A stretch of 62,400 nt of DNA, taken from positions 1 through 62,400 of IMG/VR virus record IMGVR_UViG_3300024518_003383, one strand, 5' to 3'. The notes beneath the pieces are model-generated. The model searched no databases and was not told the DNA's origin. It was given only the letters and a program-made list of their open reading frames with translations. This stretch comes from a virus. Of this stretch, positions 7,251 to 59,710 are shown in pieces. The position numbers and the translations under genes are program-made. Position 1 is the first letter of the stretch; each line of letters begins with the position of its first letter.

Positions 7251-7832
7251 ATGGCGGGTGCAGGCATTGACCGGGGGCCTGCACCCGCCGGCGTCCTCTC
7301 CATCGACCCCGCGAGCAAGTGCGGGTGGGCGATGTGGACCGGCGGCCGACTATTCCGGCTCGGGACGTGGAAGCTCTCCAGCGGGAAGCCGCTCGAACTT
7401 CGCTTTCGCCAAGTAGCGAAGCACGTCGCGCGGGCCGTCGGAGAACTACAGCACGCAAGCGGCGGCCGCGTCGTCGTCGCGTTTGAGGAAGCCCCGTTCA
7501 ACACGACCGGCATCGACTCGACCATGTCCGCCTATGGACTGCGAGCCCTGCTCATGGTCACGTGTGCGGAGCAGCGGGTCCGCTACCTTCGGATCAACGT
7601 CAGCACGGCGAAGAAGAGCGCGACCGGATACGGCGACGCACACAAGGCGGAGATCATCGCCGCGATCTCCAAACGATTTTCGATCCCGAAACTGTCCGAC
7701 GATGAAGCCGACGCTGTCGCGGTTGGCATCGTAGCCCACGAGCGGTTGGGCCTAACACTCACAACCCCAGCAATCGAGCCGCTCCCCCGGTTGCCACGAC
7801 CACCGAAGAAGAAACGGAAGGCCAAACGATGA
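7251..7832 (+). CDS. RuvC-like Holliday-junction resolvase
   Basis: A 193-residue protein with a RuvC/RNase-H fold pattern: SIDPASKCGWA (Asp19) on the first strand, VVVAFEEAP (Glu near 79), and a C-terminal DDEADAVAVG acidic pair. Together these give the metal-binding D-E-D-D set. Family members cut four-way junctions during recombination and resolve branched DNA before packaging. A very basic C-terminal tail (KKKRKAKR) should aid DNA binding. It starts one base after the transglycosylase stop and overlaps the next gene by four bases. Confidence 0.82.
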   Translation: MAGAGIDRGPAPAGVLSIDPASKCGWAMWTGGRLFRLGTWKLSSGKPLELRFRQVAKHVARAVGELQHASGGRVVVAFEEAPFNTTGIDSTMSAYGLRALLMVTCAEQRVRYLRINVSTAKKSATGYGDAHKAEIIAAISKRFSIPKLSDDEADAVAVGIVAHERLGLTLTTPAIEPLPRLPRPPKKKRKAKR

Positions 7833-8626
7833 CGACGAAGAAGAAAACGAGCAAGCCAAAAGCCCCGAAGAAGAAAAGCGCGAAGAAGGAGTCCCGCAAG
7901 TCCAGGGCGTCGAAGGAAGAGAACGAACGCCAGGCGGATGTGTTGGCCGAAGTCGTGGACGCTGGCCACGGGGACTATACGGGCACGGTCGCGCCAGACG
8001 AGGACGGGCACGGGTTCATGGGCCGCGTGTATCGTGTCGAGCACGGTGGGGAGGTCCCCGCTCGTGGTCCGGAAGTCTACGCGACCGGCCTTGTCCCCAC
8101 GCGCGACGATGTCGAGACCTTGATCCGAGCGTGGACGAAGTCGCATTCCGAGCACCTCGCCGAAGTCGAGCGCGTTTCCAACAAGCTACGGGCGGAGACG
8201 TTCGAGTTCGTCAACTCGATCGAGTCGGAGATCATCGAAGAGGAAGGGAAGCTGGCAAAGTTGAAAGCCAAGACATCGGAGCACAAGGCGAACATCCAAG
8301 CCTTGCACACGACGCGACGAGAATACCTCGCACGCGCGAACGACCCGCAACTGGAATTCAGTTTCTCCGGGCTCGCACCTTCGGCCGTCGCACCGGAGCC
8401 GGAGAAAGACTCGCCCGAAGCCCCCACGGCGAATGATTCTCTGGTGGTGTTGACCCCGGCGAAGGCGTCGAAGTTGATCGCCGCGACAGCGGACGTTGAA
8501 ACGTTGGAAGCGTGGCGGTGCGTTGAACTAGACCAGGACGACGTCCGCGAGGACGTCCTGGGCGAGATTGACACGCGGATCGACGAGATAGCGATCAGCC
8601 GCGAGACGAACACCAACGTAAACTAG
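7829..8626 (+). CDS. Unknown protein with lysine-rich N-terminus and coiled-coil middle
   Basis: 265 residues: a Lys/Ser/Pro-rich first 45 residues likely disordered and DNA- or RNA-binding, a folded-looking part (about 50-100), a charged helical stretch rich in Glu and Lys (about 100-175) typical of coiled coil, then an acidic C-terminus. No family is recognised. ATGA overlap with the RuvC-like gene points to co-translation, so a helper role in recombination is plausible but unproven. Confidence 0.75.
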   Translation: MTTKKKTSKPKAPKKKSAKKESRKSRASKEENERQADVLAEVVDAGHGDYTGTVAPDEDGHGFMGRVYRVEHGGEVPARGPEVYATGLVPTRDDVETLIRAWTKSHSEHLAEVERVSNKLRAETFEFVNSIESEIIEEEGKLAKLKAKTSEHKANIQALHTTRREYLARANDPQLEFSFSGLAPSAVAPEPEKDSPEAPTANDSLVVLTPAKASKLIAATADVETLEAWRCVELDQDDVREDVLGEIDTRIDEIAISRETNTNVN

Positions 8627-19385: not shown

Positions 19386-19991
<606 letters not shown>

Positions 19992-19996
19992 CATGC

Positions 19997-20002
19997 TACG
20001 TT
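19997..20002 (+). promoter_or_regulatory. Extended -10 box (TGC-TACGTT), leaderless type
   Basis: TGC-TACGTT lies exactly 6 nt before the ATG at 20009. No -35 is visible because hexamer repeats occupy that place; the TG-N motif could compensate. Confidence 0.5.
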
Positions 20003-20008
20003 CCCGGC

Positions 20009-21064
20009 ATGCCAACCCAACAGCCAACCCCACTGTCCTTCGCGCAGACCCGAGAAATCGCGGAAGACGTCTACTGTGCCCCCTCTATGATGCCCGTGGT
20101 CGGGCGGAACGACGTCCTTCGCGTGGTCGAATATCTCTTCGGGCGCCCCAACGCGGACCAGGACTGTTCCGAAACCGAGATGCGGACGAAGCACCGCAAC
20201 ACGATCGCGGAGTCGATCACGGGCATCGAACGTCCGAACGCTGACGAGTGCCCCCCGCTGTCACCCGAAGAGATCGGCGACATCGGCTACGGGCTTGCCA
20301 ACTTGCCCGGGGAGATCGGCCCGTCGCCATCGTCCGCGGTGGCTACGCTGGCCCTGGTCTTCGGGCGCTCGGGAGACCTGGAGTTGACCCCGGATGTGGA
20401 GAAGGAACGCCAGCGGCTCGTCGCTCGCCTGTTCCAACAGCCGCGGAGCGAAGACCGGTCGACCACCAAGGGTGACGCGTTCGGGCGAGACGACCTGGGC
20501 CGGGCGATGGCGGCGCAACGCCGCCGCCCCTCCGTGGCCAAGCCGGAACCCACGGCGCCGCGGCTCGTCGAGTTGGAAAGCGGCGAGTGGATCGACGCTT
20601 CGCTAGTCGTGGCGGTCTCGTTTGGCCCGGTGGACCTGTGCGGGGCAGTCGACATTGTCGCCACGATGGGCTCCGGGCAAGTGGTGCGGTTCGGTCCCTT
20701 CGATGGCGTCCGCGCCCGGGAAGTAATCGCCGGTGTCGGCAGACTCGTGAACGAAGCGAAGGGGCACGCTCCGGCGGACCCGGGGACCCGTGTCGAAGAG
20801 GTCGCCGCCGCGCTAAGGGCCATCGCCAAACCGCCGAAGACCGCCGGCGAGCCCGCACCAGAGGCCGCCGAACTCCCGGACGGCTGGCGCCCATGCAGCA
20901 TGGGAGGGAAGGGGGCGGTGCGAGTGGACCGGGACGGCGGCCCTCTCCAGACCGTCGAGATCCGGGGCGGGTCCCTCGCGAGCTATGGCCGCTCCTGTGT
21001 CCCCGATCGGATTCCCATCCCGGTCGCCGTCGCCGCCTACGTCCTCGCCCACGCTGAAGAGTAG
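20009..21064 (+). CDS. Unknown 351-residue protein
   Basis: A single-gene unit between the intergenic region and the tRNA-like elements. Residues 1-130 are helical (FAQTREIAEDVYCAPSMM, VLRVVEYLFGRP). Residues 185-260 are beta-rich (ESGEWIDASLVVAVSFGPV). The C-terminus ends with PIPVAVAAYVLAHAEE. No family recognised. The start follows a TACGTT box by 6 nt; in-frame codons upstream run through the hexamer repeats (poly-Arg) and are unlikely to be translated. Confidence 0.65.
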   Translation: MPTQQPTPLSFAQTREIAEDVYCAPSMMPVVGRNDVLRVVEYLFGRPNADQDCSETEMRTKHRNTIAESITGIERPNADECPPLSPEEIGDIGYGLANLPGEIGPSPSSAVATLALVFGRSGDLELTPDVEKERQRLVARLFQQPRSEDRSTTKGDAFGRDDLGRAMAAQRRRPSVAKPEPTAPRLVELESGEWIDASLVVAVSFGPVDLCGAVDIVATMGSGQVVRFGPFDGVRAREVIAGVGRLVNEAKGHAPADPGTRVEEVAAALRAIAKPPKTAGEPAPEAAELPDGWRPCSMGGKGAVRVDRDGGPLQTVEIRGGSLASYGRSCVPDRIPIPVAVAAYVLAHAEE

Positions 21065-21086: not shown

Positions 21087-21147
21087 ACCTTCGCTAGCTC
21101 AACAGTAGAGCACGCGTGTATCCCGGGGGCAGGACCCGGGGCGAAGA
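21087..21147 (+). ncRNA. tRNA-like element lacking an anticodon arm
   Basis: A possible acceptor stem CCTTCGC pairs 6 of 7 with GCGAAGA; TA is followed by a perfect D-arm GCTC-AACAGTA-GAGC; then a CCGGG/CCCGG stem. Only about 11 nt separate D-arm and T-like arm, so there is no anticodon arm, and the loop lacks TTCRA. It is either a decayed tRNA or a tRNA mimic. Confidence 0.4.
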
Positions 21148-21161
21148 GCCGGGACGCCGGC

Positions 21162-21249
21162 GGCAACGTAGCTCAGATGGTTTAGAGCCCTTCGACCAGT
21201 GCTAACACCGGTAGGGGGCGAGTCCCGGGTTCGAATCCCGGCGATGCCG
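21162..21249 (+). tRNA. tRNA-like gene with abnormal anticodon arm
   Basis: Acceptor GGCAACG pairs 6 of 7 with CGATGCC. TA, a D-arm GCTC-AGATGGTTTA-GAGC and a textbook T-arm CCGGG-TTCGAAT-CCCGG follow. The 36 bases between D and T arms do not fold as a standard 17-nt anticodon arm plus variable loop. They fold as CCTTC/GGGGG topped by ACCAGTG-CTAA-CACCGGT with one mismatch. A GCT (Ser) reading in TGCTAA is possible but has no normal stem. CCA is not encoded. Length is 88 nt. Confidence 0.55.
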
Positions 21250-21284
21250 CGAAAGCCTGGACTTCGGTCCGGGCTTTCGTTTGT
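21250..21284 (+). terminator. Intrinsic terminator after the tRNA-like pair
   Basis: CGAAAGCCTGGAC and GTCCGGGCTTTCG pair over 13 bp (one U-G) with a UUCG tetraloop, followed by TTTGTCT. It begins right at the tRNA-like 3' end, implying the RNAs are transcribed and cleaved from a terminated precursor. Confidence 0.82.
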
Positions 21285-21311: not shown

Positions 21312-23387
21312 GTGAGCAAGCCAACCCCGAAGAGCAAGTCAAAGCGGAAGAAGAAGGACACGCCAGCCGTCGCGGAGTACCCGATCCGAAAGGTCCCGCT
21401 GTCGAAGTTGAAGGCGGACCCACGCAACCCACGAGAGATTAGCGACGACGCGGCGTCGGGCCTTCGTCATGGGCTGGAGAAGTTCGGGATGCTGGGCGTC
21501 CCTATCTTCAACGAGCGCACGGGGCAACTTGTCGGAGGACACCAACGCGTCGAGCAGCTTCGAGCGCTAGGCATGACGCACGTCCGGGCGATGGTCGTCG
21601 ACTTCGACCCCACCGATCAGAAAGCGGTCAACATCCTGCTAAACAATCCCGCCATCGCGGGCGAGTTCACAGACGAGGTCGGGCCCATACTCGACGAGCT
21701 ATCGGGCGAGCTAGGCGAAGAGGACTTCGAGGCCGGCGGGTTCGCGGACTTGGAGGCCTTGCTCTTCGACATCGTGTCGGAGGACGACGAGCAGGACGTG
21801 GCCGGGACGACCTTCGACCCCGACTACATCCCCCCGCCGCCCGCAAAGCCGAAGACGAAGAAGGGGGCGAAGGTCACGATCGGCCGGCATACCCTGCATT
21901 GCGCTGACTGTATGGCCGTTATGGCCAAGCTTCCCGACAACAGCGTGGACGCCATCGTCTCGGACCCGCCCTATGGCCTGTCTCCCGACGGCAAGGCTCG
22001 CACATGGGATGACATCGAAGAGATGCGGGAGAAGGCCCGGAACGCGAAGGGCGAGGCGGCGAAGGAGATGCGCGGCTTCATGGGCAACACATGGGACGCG
22101 GGAGTGCCCGGTCGCAAGTGGGCGGCGGAGTGCCTTCGAGTTCTCAAGCCCGGCGGGTATCTCCTCGCGGCGTCGAGCGGCCGGACCTATCACGTACTCG
22201 CGTATGCGGTCGACCGTTCAGGCTTCGATATGCTGGAGATGGTCGACTGGCTGTACACGTCCAATATGCCTAAGAGCATGGACATCGCTAAGGCCATCGA
22301 CAAGCAGAGGGACGACCGCGCCGGGATCCTGAAGGTGACAGCGTGGATCCGGAAGGCACGCGACGCGGCCGGCGTGAAGAACAAACAGATCGACGACGCC
22401 TTCGGGTTCGCTGGCATGGCCGGGCACTGGACGTCGAGCAAGTCGCAACCGAGCATCCCGACGCTTGACCAAGTTCCGAAGCTGCTCGAAGTCCTGAAGG
22501 TCAAGGCTCCACCGAAGGCGATCCAGACTCTGCTCGTCGACCTCAACGGGCGCAAGGGCGAGTGGGGCGAGGACTGGAAAGCGCGCGATGTTACGGGCCA
22601 GCACAAGTCCGCCCGCGTGTCTGGCCGTGCGGGGTATGGATACGAGAGCGGCACGCCCACAGACCGGAAGGACGACGCGCATAGCGACCTGGCCAGGCTT
22701 TGGGCCGGTTGGGGCACGGCGCTGAAGAACTGCAAAGAGCCGTTCGTCTTCGCACGCAAGCCGCTCGAAGGAACATACGCGCAGAACATCGAGCGCTGGG
22801 GCGTCGGTGGCCTGAACATCGACGGGTGTCGTCTGCCGGATGGCGACCCCATGTGGTGGGGGGACAACGACCCCCTGCACTCCGTAACGCGGGGCCCATC
22901 CGGCCAAGGGTCTGGTGTGGGGTCTGAAGTGTACGGCCGTCGCGGAGCGGGAACGGGGACGTTTCTCCCGAACCCCGGCGGACGATGGCCACCGAACGCG
23001 ATCCACGTAAGCAAGCCGGGCACGGCAGAACGCGAGGCCGGGTGCGAGGAACTCCCGTCGAAGTCCCCGGGCCAGTCGACGAAGCGCAAGGAAGGGTCCG
23101 ACGGTCTGAAGTCTCCGCGCGCCGGTGCGGGGCGGTCGAGCGAGTCGAAGAATCACCACCCCACGGTCAAGCCAGTGGCGCTCATGGAGTGGCTACTCCG
23201 GCTCGTCTGCCCTCCCGGGGCCCACGTGCTCGAACCCTTCGCGGGTAGCGGGACGACGCTCGTCGCGGCTCGTGGGTTGGACGTCCACGTCACCGCGGCG
23301 GAACTCGACCCCGCGCACTGCGACATCGTTCGCGCTCGTGTGTCACACTCTGAGAAGGAAAGCCCCTTCGCGGGCGGGAAGGGATAA
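21312..23387 (+). CDS. ParB-domain / DNA methyltransferase fusion
   Basis: A 691-residue protein. Residues about 20-115 form a ParB/sulfiredoxin-like domain (VPLSKLKADPRNPR, GGHQRVEQLRALG). The rest is a beta-class amino-methyltransferase with catalytic SDPPYGLS near residue 217 before the SAM-binding FAGSGTTLVAARG near 640, plus the usual HHPTVKP block. Such fusions are common in phages and usually modify phage DNA, protecting it from restriction; the ParB part may bind DNA or hydrolyse CTP. It opens the packaging operon, so methylation may be timed with packaging. Confidence 0.88.
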   Translation: MSKPTPKSKSKRKKKDTPAVAEYPIRKVPLSKLKADPRNPREISDDAASGLRHGLEKFGMLGVPIFNERTGQLVGGHQRVEQLRALGMTHVRAMVVDFDPTDQKAVNILLNNPAIAGEFTDEVGPILDELSGELGEEDFEAGGFADLEALLFDIVSEDDEQDVAGTTFDPDYIPPPPAKPKTKKGAKVTIGRHTLHCADCMAVMAKLPDNSVDAIVSDPPYGLSPDGKARTWDDIEEMREKARNAKGEAAKEMRGFMGNTWDAGVPGRKWAAECLRVLKPGGYLLAASSGRTYHVLAYAVDRSGFDMLEMVDWLYTSNMPKSMDIAKAIDKQRDDRAGILKVTAWIRKARDAAGVKNKQIDDAFGFAGMAGHWTSSKSQPSIPTLDQVPKLLEVLKVKAPPKAIQTLLVDLNGRKGEWGEDWKARDVTGQHKSARVSGRAGYGYESGTPTDRKDDAHSDLARLWAGWGTALKNCKEPFVFARKPLEGTYAQNIERWGVGGLNIDGCRLPDGDPMWWGDNDPLHSVTRGPSGQGSGVGSEVYGRRGAGTGTFLPNPGGRWPPNAIHVSKPGTAEREAGCEELPSKSPGQSTKRKEGSDGLKSPRAGAGRSSESKNHHPTVKPVALMEWLLRLVCPPGAHVLEPFAGSGTTLVAARGLDVHVTAAELDPAHCDIVRARVSHSEKESPFAGGKG

Positions 23388-26366: not shown

Positions 26367-27779
26367 ATGGCCGAAGCAGACCCGCAACCCGTCGACCCCT
26401 CCACACTCGAAGCCGGCTCGGGTGTGATCATCCCCCCGAGGCCCTCTGAGGGGAAGTGGAAGCTGCAGACCGCGATCGGACTCACTCCTGAGAGGCTAGG
26501 GGGGATGATCACGAAGCTATGGGACGGCGACTCGATCGAGTTCCACGGGTTCGCGGAGGAACTGGAGTCGAGGGATAGCCACTATGCTTCGCAGCTTACG
26601 ATCCTGAAGAACGCGATCACTTCGCTGGAGTGGGGGATCGAAGGACCGGAGGGGACGATACTCGAAGCGAGCACGCAACACCTCGTCAAGTCGCCCGTGT
26701 GGAAGGGGTTGACGAAGCATCTGCTCGATGCGGAGTCGAAGGGTCACGCGTGCGTCGAGATGTTCTGGCGCACTGGACCGGCGGGGACGATATGGGCGCC
26801 GCGGGAAGTGAAGTGGGCCGACCCTCGGAACTTCGGATACAAGGGGCAGCAGCTAATGCTGCGCGACTCCGAAGCGCCTACGGACTTGGAAAAGTTCCGC
26901 GAGCTTCCTCCGTACGTGTTCGCCGTATATGAAACGTCGCGCAAGTCGGGGCTTCCTTTCCGCAATGGGCTCGCGCTCCCGTGCAGCGTCATGCACCTCT
27001 TCAAGTCCTACAGTTTCAAGGACTGGGTCCAGTACCTAGGGATCTTTGGGATGCCTGTCCGGATCGGTTCGTACAATCCAACGTCGAAGGACGGGGACGT
27101 GCAGGAACTCCAGGACGCGCTCGACGCGATCGGCGAGTTCGCGTCGTGCGTCAAGCCGCTGGCCCACACGATTGACATTGTGAACCCGGGCGGGCAGGGC
27201 AACGGCGAGGCCTTCCACGAGATGGTAGACACCTGTAATCGTGAGATGTCGAAAGTGATAAACGGGCAGACGATGACGAGCGATGATGGGTCGAGTCTGT
27301 CGCAGGCCGCCGTCCACGATCTGGTCCGGCACGACATCTCGGAGAGTGTCGCGGAGGACCTCGCCGAAGCGCTGACGAAGACCGTGCTCCGTCCCTTCAT
27401 TGATCTGAACTTCGGGCTGGACTCCGCCGACGAGTACCGGGTGGTCGTGTCGTTCGACGACGCGGAGGACCTGAAGAACACAAGCGACGGGTTATCGCCA
27501 ATGATGGCCGCGGGCCTGTCCGTCAAGGAAGAGGAAGCGTACGGCCGATACGGTTGGGAGAAGCCGGTGGACGGCGACGTGGTCCTTACCAGCAAGGGCC
27601 GGGCCGTGTTCTCCCAGACGCCAAAGGATGACGGAGACGGAGACGGAGACGGAGACGGAGACGGAGACGGAGACGGAGACGGAGACGGAGACGATGCGGC
27701 GGCCCCCGAAGAAGGCGCGGCCCCGGACGATGCCGGTGAGCCGACGGAGGAAGACGCGGAGGAAGGGGGCGGGGTATGA
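26367..27779 (+). CDS. Portal protein (DUF935, Mu gp29-like)
   Basis: A 470-residue protein. The DUF935 family pattern is clear (GSGVIIPPRPSEGKWKLQTA, then ISSLEWGIEG-like and DAESKGHACVEMFW). It forms the dodecameric ring through which DNA enters the capsid and on which the tail docks. The C-terminal 50 residues carry an Asp-Gly tandem repeat encoded by a hexanucleotide array and a Glu-rich end; such a highly acidic tail is unusual for this family. No gpF-type minor head gene follows, unlike Mu. Confidence 0.9.
   Translation: MAEADPQPVDPSTLEAGSGVIIPPRPSEGKWKLQTAIGLTPERLGGMITKLWDGDSIEFHGFAEELESRDSHYASQLTILKNAITSLEWGIEGPEGTILEASTQHLVKSPVWKGLTKHLLDAESKGHACVEMFWRTGPAGTIWAPREVKWADPRNFGYKGQQLMLRDSEAPTDLEKFRELPPYVFAVYETSRKSGLPFRNGLALPCSVMHLFKSYSFKDWVQYLGIFGMPVRIGSYNPTSKDGDVQELQDALDAIGEFASCVKPLAHTIDIVNPGGQGNGEAFHEMVDTCNREMSKVINGQTMTSDDGSSLSQAAVHDLVRHDISESVAEDLAEALTKTVLRPFIDLNFGLDSADEYRVVVSFDDAEDLKNTSDGLSPMMAAGLSVKEEEAYGRYGWEKPVDGDVVLTSKGRAVFSQTPKDDGDGDGDGDGDGDGDGDGDGDDAAAPEEGAAPDDAGEPTEEDAEEGGGV
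27629..27693 (+). repeat. Tandem hexamer (ACGGAG)10 within the portal gene
   Basis: About ten perfect copies encode alternating Asp and Gly near the portal C-terminus. Because the unit is six bases, copy-number change keeps the frame and would only lengthen or shorten the acidic tail. Confidence 0.9.
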
Positions 27780-58873: not shown

Positions 58874-59143
58874 CCCCCAACAGTGAGACCTGCCCCCCTT
58901 CGAACGGTCCCCTAGTCGGTTCGACCCGACGAAGTCCGGGCAAGCCCTTAGCGTCGCTACGCGGTACCAGGACGCATAGCGCGTAAGTCGAGGCGAAGAC
59001 GTGCGCCGTCGCGCTTGCGTCGTCTCCGCGGAACCGAACGGACCGCCCCCGATCGTTCCGGGCTGAAACACACTGAAGAGACAGGCCTCGCGCCACCGGA
59101 CACCATGCCTGCACTTTCGGAGTGTCAGGATACACTTCGCTCT
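58874..59143. other. Intergenic leader upstream of the DUF1353 gene (arm B)
   Basis: Diverged copy of 128-418 with conserved blocks. The TACACT box (59131-59136) lies 7 nt before ATG 59144. No gene supported. Confidence 0.5.
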
Positions 59144-59710
59144 ATGGCAAGGACGCTGAAGACAACACCGCACGGAAAGCATCGGAAGTTGATCGAGTCA
59201 TTCGAGGCGACGGTCTTCGGCGAGAAGTGGAGGGCCCCGTCCGGCTTTATCACGGACGGGGCGAGCGTCCCCTGGTTCGCTTGGCTGCTCACGTACACAC
59301 CGCACGACCCTCGCGTGGCGGAAGCGTCGGCGATCCATGATGCGGCCTACGTGTATCAAACGAGGTCGCAGGCGGAGGCGGACCGGGCGTTCCTTGAGTT
59401 GCTGCTACGCGGCGAGGCGGCACCGTGGAAGGCCACGCTCATGTTTTGGGCGGTGAGGCTCTTCGGTTGGATCGCGTGGTGGAGAAAGTCGGCGACGGGC
59501 CTGCACCGGTCGAACCTGCAGCAGCCGAAGCCACCAGTCCCGGCGCCGGTCCTTGACCCGTCGGAGCAGGTCACACCCGTGGAAGGCGTGCCGCTCGATG
59601 GCGTGCCGGATGACGTGCAGAACCGGCCGAAGCGGATCGAGCTAGTCCCCGCGCTCCGTCGGGGAGATGACGATTCCGATCCCGATCTCGATCTGAACAC
59701 GCTATCGTGA
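59144..59710 (+). CDS. DUF1353 family phage protein, arm B allele
   Basis: 188 residues. It keeps the family core (GFITDGASVPWF, SAIHDAAYVY) and the tryptophan-rich hydrophobic stretch. It differs from the arm A copy mainly in the N-terminal 30 residues and in a Pro-rich insertion before DPSEQVTPVEG. The core conservation against drifting flanks indicates selection on the protein. Confidence 0.85.
   Translation: MARTLKTTPHGKHRKLIESFEATVFGEKWRAPSGFITDGASVPWFAWLLTYTPHDPRVAEASAIHDAAYVYQTRSQAEADRAFLELLLRGEAAPWKATLMFWAVRLFGWIAWWRKSATGLHRSNLQQPKPPVPAPVLDPSEQVTPVEGVPLDGVPDDVQNRPKRIELVPALRRGDDDSDPDLDLNTLS

Follow-up and report, generated by a model that had tools for sequence, protein, structure and literature searches.

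It has long been asked why phages carry transfer RNA (tRNA) genes; the usual answers are codon supply and the replacement of cut tRNAs, and phage tRNAs have been found to counter tRNA-cutting defences (PMC10264068, PMC11555353, PMC13096335). The closest known precedent for the RNAs considered here is the pair rnaC and rnaD of phage T4 (species 1 and 2), two adjacent small stable RNAs of unknown function (PMC9697503, PMC3014915, PMC12685909). We compare these systems with a locus in IMG/VR virus record IMGVR_UViG_3300024518_003383, of which the whole stretch of 62,400 bases was analysed (the window), where two adjacent tRNA-like elements lie on the plus strand: element 1, which lacks an anticodon arm, and element 2, a tRNA body in which a hairpin takes the place of that arm. 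The explanation that we favour, and which we advance only tentatively, is that both are non-decoding tRNA mimics which, as decoys or sponges, capture host proteins reading the tRNA body. Non-decoding tRNA bodies isolate a third idea on phage tRNAs, namely the binding of tRNA-recognising proteins, and offer ready molecules for examining it.

Element 2 reads GGCAACG-TA-GCTC-AGATGGTTTA-GAGC-[CCTTCGACCAGTGCTAACACCGGTAGGGGG]-CGAGTC-CCGGG-TTCGAAT-CCCGG-CGATGCC-G, the bracketed CCTTCGACCAGTGCTAACACCGGTAGGGGG being the replaced arm, and consists of the following parts.

21162..21249, plus strand: element 2, a whole tRNA body of 88 nucleotides with the anticodon arm replaced (Rfam tRNA, 39 bits; class model R1, 54.3 bits)
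21162..21168, plus strand: 5' strand of the acceptor, pairing with 21242-21248 (6/7)
21171..21188, plus strand: D arm GCTC/GAGC, loop with G18 and G19 (sequence; Rfam tRNA alignment)
21189..21218, plus strand: interrupted hairpin of 30 nucleotides replacing the anticodon arm, with neither an arm of 5 base pairs and 7 loop nucleotides nor U33 (folds)
21219..21224, plus strand: variable region CGAGTC, ending in G46-T47-C48, of which C48 is the Levitt partner of G15 (sequence; class statistics)
21225..21241, plus strand: T arm CCGGG-TTCGAAT-CCCGG (sequence; Rfam alignment)

The Rfam tRNA model matches this body with 39.0 bits (gathering score 29, E value 7.5e-6), and a scan of the whole window with model R1, a class model of anticodon-less tRNA bodies from whose building the window sequence was left out, gave 54.3 bits (E value 6e-16). 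The D stem (4/4) and the T stem (5/5) are fully paired, the acceptor has an A-A mismatch at 5-68, and C21161-G21249 together with G21160-C21250 could extend it by 2 base pairs. All the elbow bases can be read from the sequence: U8, A14, G15-C48, G18, G19, A21, T54, T55, C56 and A58. The middle folds as CCTTC-G-ACC-A-GTG-CTAA-CAC-C-GGT-A-GGGGG, a two-step hairpin with the loop CTAA, the stability of which by itself is ordinary (z score -1.0). Neither the fold nor ARAGORN finds in element 2 an anticodon arm of 5 base pairs with a loop of 7 nucleotides and U33; plain ARAGORN calls no tRNA, and its intron mode yields a forced tRNA-Val(AAC) with an intron of 7 nucleotides and a badly paired anticodon stem.

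Element 2 thus has the acceptor (6/7), D arm and T arm (TTCRANY) of a canonical tRNA and lacks the anticodon arm, and it combines the elbow, C48 and non-canonical arm that define a phage class of anticodon-less tRNA-like RNAs. A sequence-only reading of the window had described two adjacent tRNA-like RNAs, the second with clear acceptor, D and T arms and an imperfect hairpin of about 30 nucleotides in place of the anticodon arm, and the sequence, the Rfam match and the folds bear out this description. The same reading had named covariance and intron-mode searches as its check, in which, as we find, the tRNA model matches the body, no normal anticodon arm appears and the intron model is forced and mispaired; its view that functional decoding is unlikely agrees with the lack of an anticodon arm in the fold and in ARAGORN. 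What is odd about element 2 is that this arm is absent while the rest of the tRNA body is good, and we think it probable that the element belongs to the class as a real RNA that does not decode. That the design recurs in many phages lay beyond the reach of the sequence-only reading.

The class was delineated by scanning IMG/VR with three patterns in which only D-arm bases and a portion of the T arm were fixed, the distance between the two was lengthened and the acceptor was unconstrained; these patterns are exact and miss other D-arm types. The case set comprises these scans, the window and loci from a scan of bacterial and archaeal genomes. The three scans yielded at least 190 distinct pairings of a D arm with a T arm across an enlarged middle; among the matches listed (190), 51 have a canonical anticodon arm, mostly with long variable arms, and 139 lack one, 136 of these non-canonical cases remaining after removal of masked ones. 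Acceptor pairing in the 136 cases averages 6.5/7, compared to 3.2 when strands are swapped between sequences, and 87.5% have at least 6 pairs. The best 113 of the 136, which form 110 clusters at 90% identity, keep both acceptor and T stems, although the search did not demand them; C48 of the G15-C48 tertiary pair is present in 106 of the 113 and a purine at position 26 in 97, and a genomically encoded CCA follows 14 of them (P 3e-9). U33 is not conserved in the class, and the 27-31/39-43 stem is fully paired in 30% (1% by chance), so that the replaced arm often retains the outer stem and then runs into a second helix. The examined DNA of 65 of the 113 members contains no other tRNA.

Homologous members of the class show covariation. 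Between L127 and L160, three compensatory changes fall in the acceptor and three in the T stem, none broken, and the new arm has CTG-CAG against CCA-TGG, both helices; two-sided changes with none broken are also seen among the homologues L180/L188, L218/L274/L277, L182/L243 and L208/L230. In a set of 55 sequences, both-sides-changed cells number 386, versus 132 in shuffles, the set having been picked for complete acceptor and T stems, a selection that itself bears on the percentages for these two stems. Acceptor pairs are broken in the homologue pairs L116/L138 and L210/L266, and some class copies must therefore be decaying. Compensatory change, then, argues against decay for the class, not for the window copy.

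Acceptor pairing in the class beyond 7 base pairs is the same as in canonical tRNAs, and an extended acceptor was rejected as a class trait; in L291 (1196-1289), the acceptor stem of a tRNA-like body is prolonged by 15 base pairs, hence no free 3' end is possible. A number of phage tRNAs with Val, Trp, Pro, Tyr, Ile or Asn anticodons (L085, L089, L090, L095, L097-L099, L106, L108 and others) have class I D arms and long variable arms; in bacteria, long variable arms are not normal for most of these isotypes.

Element 1 reads CCTTCGC-TA-GCTC-AACAGTA-GAGC-ACGCGTGTAT-CCCGGG-GGCAGGA-CCCGGG-GCGAAG and can be divided as follows.

21088..21148, plus strand: element 1, tRNA-like, without an anticodon arm (D arm match; model R1, 13.3 bits; fold)
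21088-21094/21141-21147, plus strand: acceptor, 6 base pairs, the C-A end pair open
21097-21111, plus strand: D arm, within TAGCTCAACAGTAGAGCA at 21095-21112, which differs from the standard D arm at 1 of 18 bases
21112-21121, plus strand: linker (sequence)
21122-21140, plus strand: T-like stem CCCGGG/CCCGGG of 6 base pairs in the place of the T stem, its loop being GGCAGGA, not TTCRANY

A D arm match with at most 3 mismatches is expected by chance 0.02 times, and we state with confidence that element 1 derives from a tRNA. The sequence-only reading had rightly assigned it acceptor and D arms with neither an anticodon arm nor a TTCRA loop. At the RNA level support for it is modest: model R1 gives 13.3 bits with filters off, and the whole-window scan at default filters did not list it. 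An armless form of the class, sought with a pattern that has a shorter middle, comprises 37 distinct cases, of which 28 reach 6/7 acceptor pairs or more (6% by chance), with C48 in 27 of the 28; many of them, in unrelated phages and with unrelated acceptors, share a linker near CTTGGGTC. This design appears to be that of element 1, bar the lost T loop: as a member of the armless form, element 1 has the D arm and the acceptor, lacks the T loop and scores weakly at 13.3 bits. As a partner of element 2 it has probably either degenerated, through partial decay, or been minimal, and only tentatively do we regard it as functional. A reading of the two elements as one split tRNA was rejected on the ground that D arm and acceptor are separately present in each.

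Tandem non-canonical pairs occur at 19 of 263 loci, and in L440 an armless and an arm-replaced RNA lie about 140 nucleotides apart. In L425 (4041-4111, 4701-4770, 5322-5388), three tandem paralogues about 600 nucleotides apart have a near-identical acceptor and T arm and three different non-canonical arms.

The class is enriched in phages and rare in bacteria, according to a control that covered Bacteroidota closely and the remaining phyla by one pattern only. In 296 Bacteroidota genomes, the normal-length pattern was found in 290 and the enlarged version of that pattern in none; across 84,980 genomes of bacteria and archaea (257 gigabases), another enlarged pattern matched 7 times, and at least 2 of these 7 matches plainly lie in masked sequence. 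Searching GenBank phages with 46 concatenated class elements returned no match apart from a Pseudomonas aeruginosa family, so the source phages are absent from GenBank. The P. aeruginosa phages Haboob, Shamal and Itty13 carry this exceptional tRNA-like family without an annotation, whereas TC7, MD8 and others have at that locus a different insert within the same closing stem; in temperate P. aeruginosa phages (L307 and L310 versus L308, L309, L311 and L312) the stem GTGGTCT/AGACCAC closes interchangeable inserts of tRNA-like or other fold, and the tRNA-like RNA is accordingly one exchangeable module there. As for the window locus, a BLAST search of 50,697 phages gave only short tRNA-like or chance matches, a single-sequence terminase scan found no relatives, and relatives of the methyltransferase gene of the window have ordinary tRNAs only.

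The two elements and a strong hairpin make up the content of the gap between the end of an open reading frame (ORF) at 21064 and the start of a gene at 21312.

21250..21279, plus strand: hairpin of 13 base pairs with a TTCG loop, directly after base 73 of element 2 and followed by TTTG (z score -5.7)
19691..21064, plus strand: upstream ORF without a Pfam match, which stops 24 nucleotides 5' of element 1
21312..23387, plus strand: downstream gene for a ParB-like domain and DNA methyltransferase (PHROG 67/498/620)

The hairpin, which abuts the discriminator base, is much stabler than its shuffles, and its layout resembles that of rrnB T1. The sequence-only reading had the elements end at a strong terminator; the strong hairpin stands, and the consensus rule makes no call at 21250-21279, passing over the hairpin because the U tract is weak (only TTTG). 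Probably it is an intrinsic terminator with a weak U tract. In that case the hairpin would stay on the 3' end of element 2 unless an unusual cut removed it, and a CCA-ended RNA from this copy becomes less likely.

The record has Mu-like head genes (portal, PHROG 113; terminase, PHROG 2), the scanned window proteins include a tail sheath and baseplate genes, and the window has no ordinary tRNA gene. Genes of PHROG 1158 (tail assembly chaperone) lie at both ends (230-973 and 59015-59710), which suggests that the genome is permuted or circular, or that a duplication took place. Two GAC-GGA-type repeat tracts encode (DG)n or similar, the first (19939-20010) in the upstream ORF, the second (27620-27720) where the portal gene ends.

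What might such RNAs do? In the scenario that we favour, elements 1 and 2 would be paired tRNA-like RNAs that do not decode, encoded by a phage whose head genes are Mu-like, and element 2 would represent a widespread, phage-enriched class with arm-replaced forms, such as itself, and armless forms, such as element 1. This copy would be transcribed, have its 5' end formed by RNase P and stop at the hairpin, and element 2 would fold into an L-shaped tRNA body with the acceptor, the D and T arms, the elbow between them and G15-C48 all kept. With a plain hairpin replacing the anticodon arm, it would be unable to read codons, yet should bind proteins that recognise the tRNA body. The elbow and acceptor are recognised by RNase P, the CCA-adding enzyme, several modification enzymes and many tRNA-attacking toxins. 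The least certain step is the last: the RNAs might act like a sponge or decoy, catching host proteins that use the body or the acceptor end to bind, modify or attack tRNAs, and thereby shield tRNAs needed by the phage. Should element 2 indeed be a real, non-decoding member of the class, we regard a trans-acting, decoy-like role as about an even proposition. Among the options offered by the sequence-only reading, the decoy fits best, although a decoy for anticodon-loop nucleases is unlikely: with that loop gone, only a target that reads the elbow, the acceptor or the variable region would come into question. A broader proposal, which we put forward with still more reserve, is that phages of many lineages encode an unnamed class of armless or arm-replaced tRNA mimics, often paired, misannotated as ordinary tRNAs, selected for elbow and acceptor rather than for decoding, and acting in trans, likely as counter-defence decoys.

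Several observations weigh against non-decoding mimics at this locus. The hairpin adjoins base 73, leaving ordinary 3' trimming and CCA addition without room; the T loop is missing from element 1, and element 2 has the A-A acceptor mismatch and an unusual C26, all as decay would produce; an alignment-based scan found 80 terminase relatives, the best 41-42% identical, none of which has the element; and neighbouring genes differ in nearly every phage, none common to them pointing to a partner. Some of these facts suit the strongest competing explanation, by which two phage tRNA genes lost their anticodon arms by insertion or deletion and are now decaying: element 1 has lost its T loop and scores only 13.3 bits, the acceptor of element 2 is mismatched, and no relative has kept the locus. 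As a general matter, phage tRNA gene sets turn over quickly. This explanation is contradicted at the class level by intact acceptors, C48, the encoded CCA and compensatory changes, and at the locus itself by the elbow bases of element 2, which are all intact, only the arm being different; we consider it unlikely, if deserving of the most attention among the competitors.

The site between two same-strand genes, with the strong hairpin immediately after, invites yet another interpretation, that of a module acting in cis on processing or stability, in which an RNase P signal and a 3' cap separate the upstream transcript from the methyltransferase-terminase operon. The P. aeruginosa phages provide a parallel, since their tRNA-like RNA, an interchangeable insert in a shared stem upstream of a gene, looks like a cis element or scaffold. 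A cis signal would, however, not require two copies, the variation of the neighbouring genes fits it poorly, and a simple terminator-like site within 90 nucleotides is found in only 13 of the 113 class members, all of which makes it less probable again than decay.

An intron-bearing tRNA had also been among the options of the sequence-only reading; in a wider version, the tRNA would decode once splicing or editing had mended an intron or an odd anticodon arm. The tRNA-Val(AAC) of ARAGORN and a few related sequences that resemble tRNAs with an insert (L105, L157, L237) speak for it, and the class is heterogeneous, these few members perhaps being insert-bearing tRNAs; in L105 (4821-4887), a Val(TAC)-type loop, CTTAC..AC, is broken by a hairpin of 16 nucleotides, CCCCGGTCTAACGGGG, possibly a real intron-like insert. 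For element 2, this reading is largely refuted and we give it very little credence: excision of any stretch yields no convincing anticodon arm, the stem in the ARAGORN model is mispaired, the length excess of 13 nucleotides does not match the inner hairpin of 18, the region contains no Rfam intron family, and the class conserves no U33 and pairs its outer stem fully in only 30%.

Phage attachment sites (attP) usually contain only the 3' half of a tRNA gene. That the locus is an attP remnant carrying part of a host tRNA gene is the least probable explanation of all, even if tRNA 3' ends often serve as attP cores (PMC10865867), as it leaves element 1 and the class unexplained, the D arm and the 5' strand of the acceptor are present too, and the window proteins scanned (part of the ORFs) include no integrase.

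With such a class at hand, it becomes testable whether some phage "tRNAs" serve purposes outside translation. The annotation of phage tRNAs is contaminated: ARAGORN gives 77 of the 113 class members a tRNA call, many with a named isotype. We found no description of anticodon-less phage tRNA-like RNAs in the open-access literature, most subscription papers being outside this scope.

How, then, do the elements compare with known systems? The phage tRNAs that evade tRNA-cutting defences are likewise phage-encoded tRNA bodies for which protection of the tRNA pool has been proposed (PMC10264068, PMC11555353, PMC13096335), but their anticodon still works and they take the place of the host tRNA, which the window elements cannot do. 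Transfer-messenger RNA (tmRNA), whether one-piece or permuted, resembles element 2 in that a helix replaces the anticodon arm of a tRNA-like body; element 2 differs in having a true D stem and neither a tag reading frame nor pseudoknots, and no tmRNA was called in the window (ARAGORN -m, Rfam). One phage contig, L084, has a permuted (two-piece) tmRNA (7773-7993, minus strand; 52 bits, gathering score 47), directly upstream of which lies an arm-replaced tRNA-like RNA. The Streptococcus small RNA SpF41 of Rfam shares with element 2 the T arm, an acceptor-like stem and a terminator hairpin right after, although the region of element 2 scores 33.8 bits against it, below the gathering score of 52. 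T4 rnaC and rnaD, at 139 and 119 nucleotides, differ from the window elements in having no recognisable D arm, no sequence homology to them and no match to Rfam tRNA, and in lying within a tRNA operon, whereas the window lacks ordinary tRNAs; the class model matches rnaC in the T arm only, which falls short of homology. This T arm, with which rnaC ends, has, nevertheless, the same 17-nucleotide sequence, CCGGGTTCGAATCCCGG, as that of element 2, and both loci present an adjacent pair of phage RNAs without an anticodon, that of T4 near tRNA genes. In function, rnaC and rnaD may be of the same kind as the class described here.
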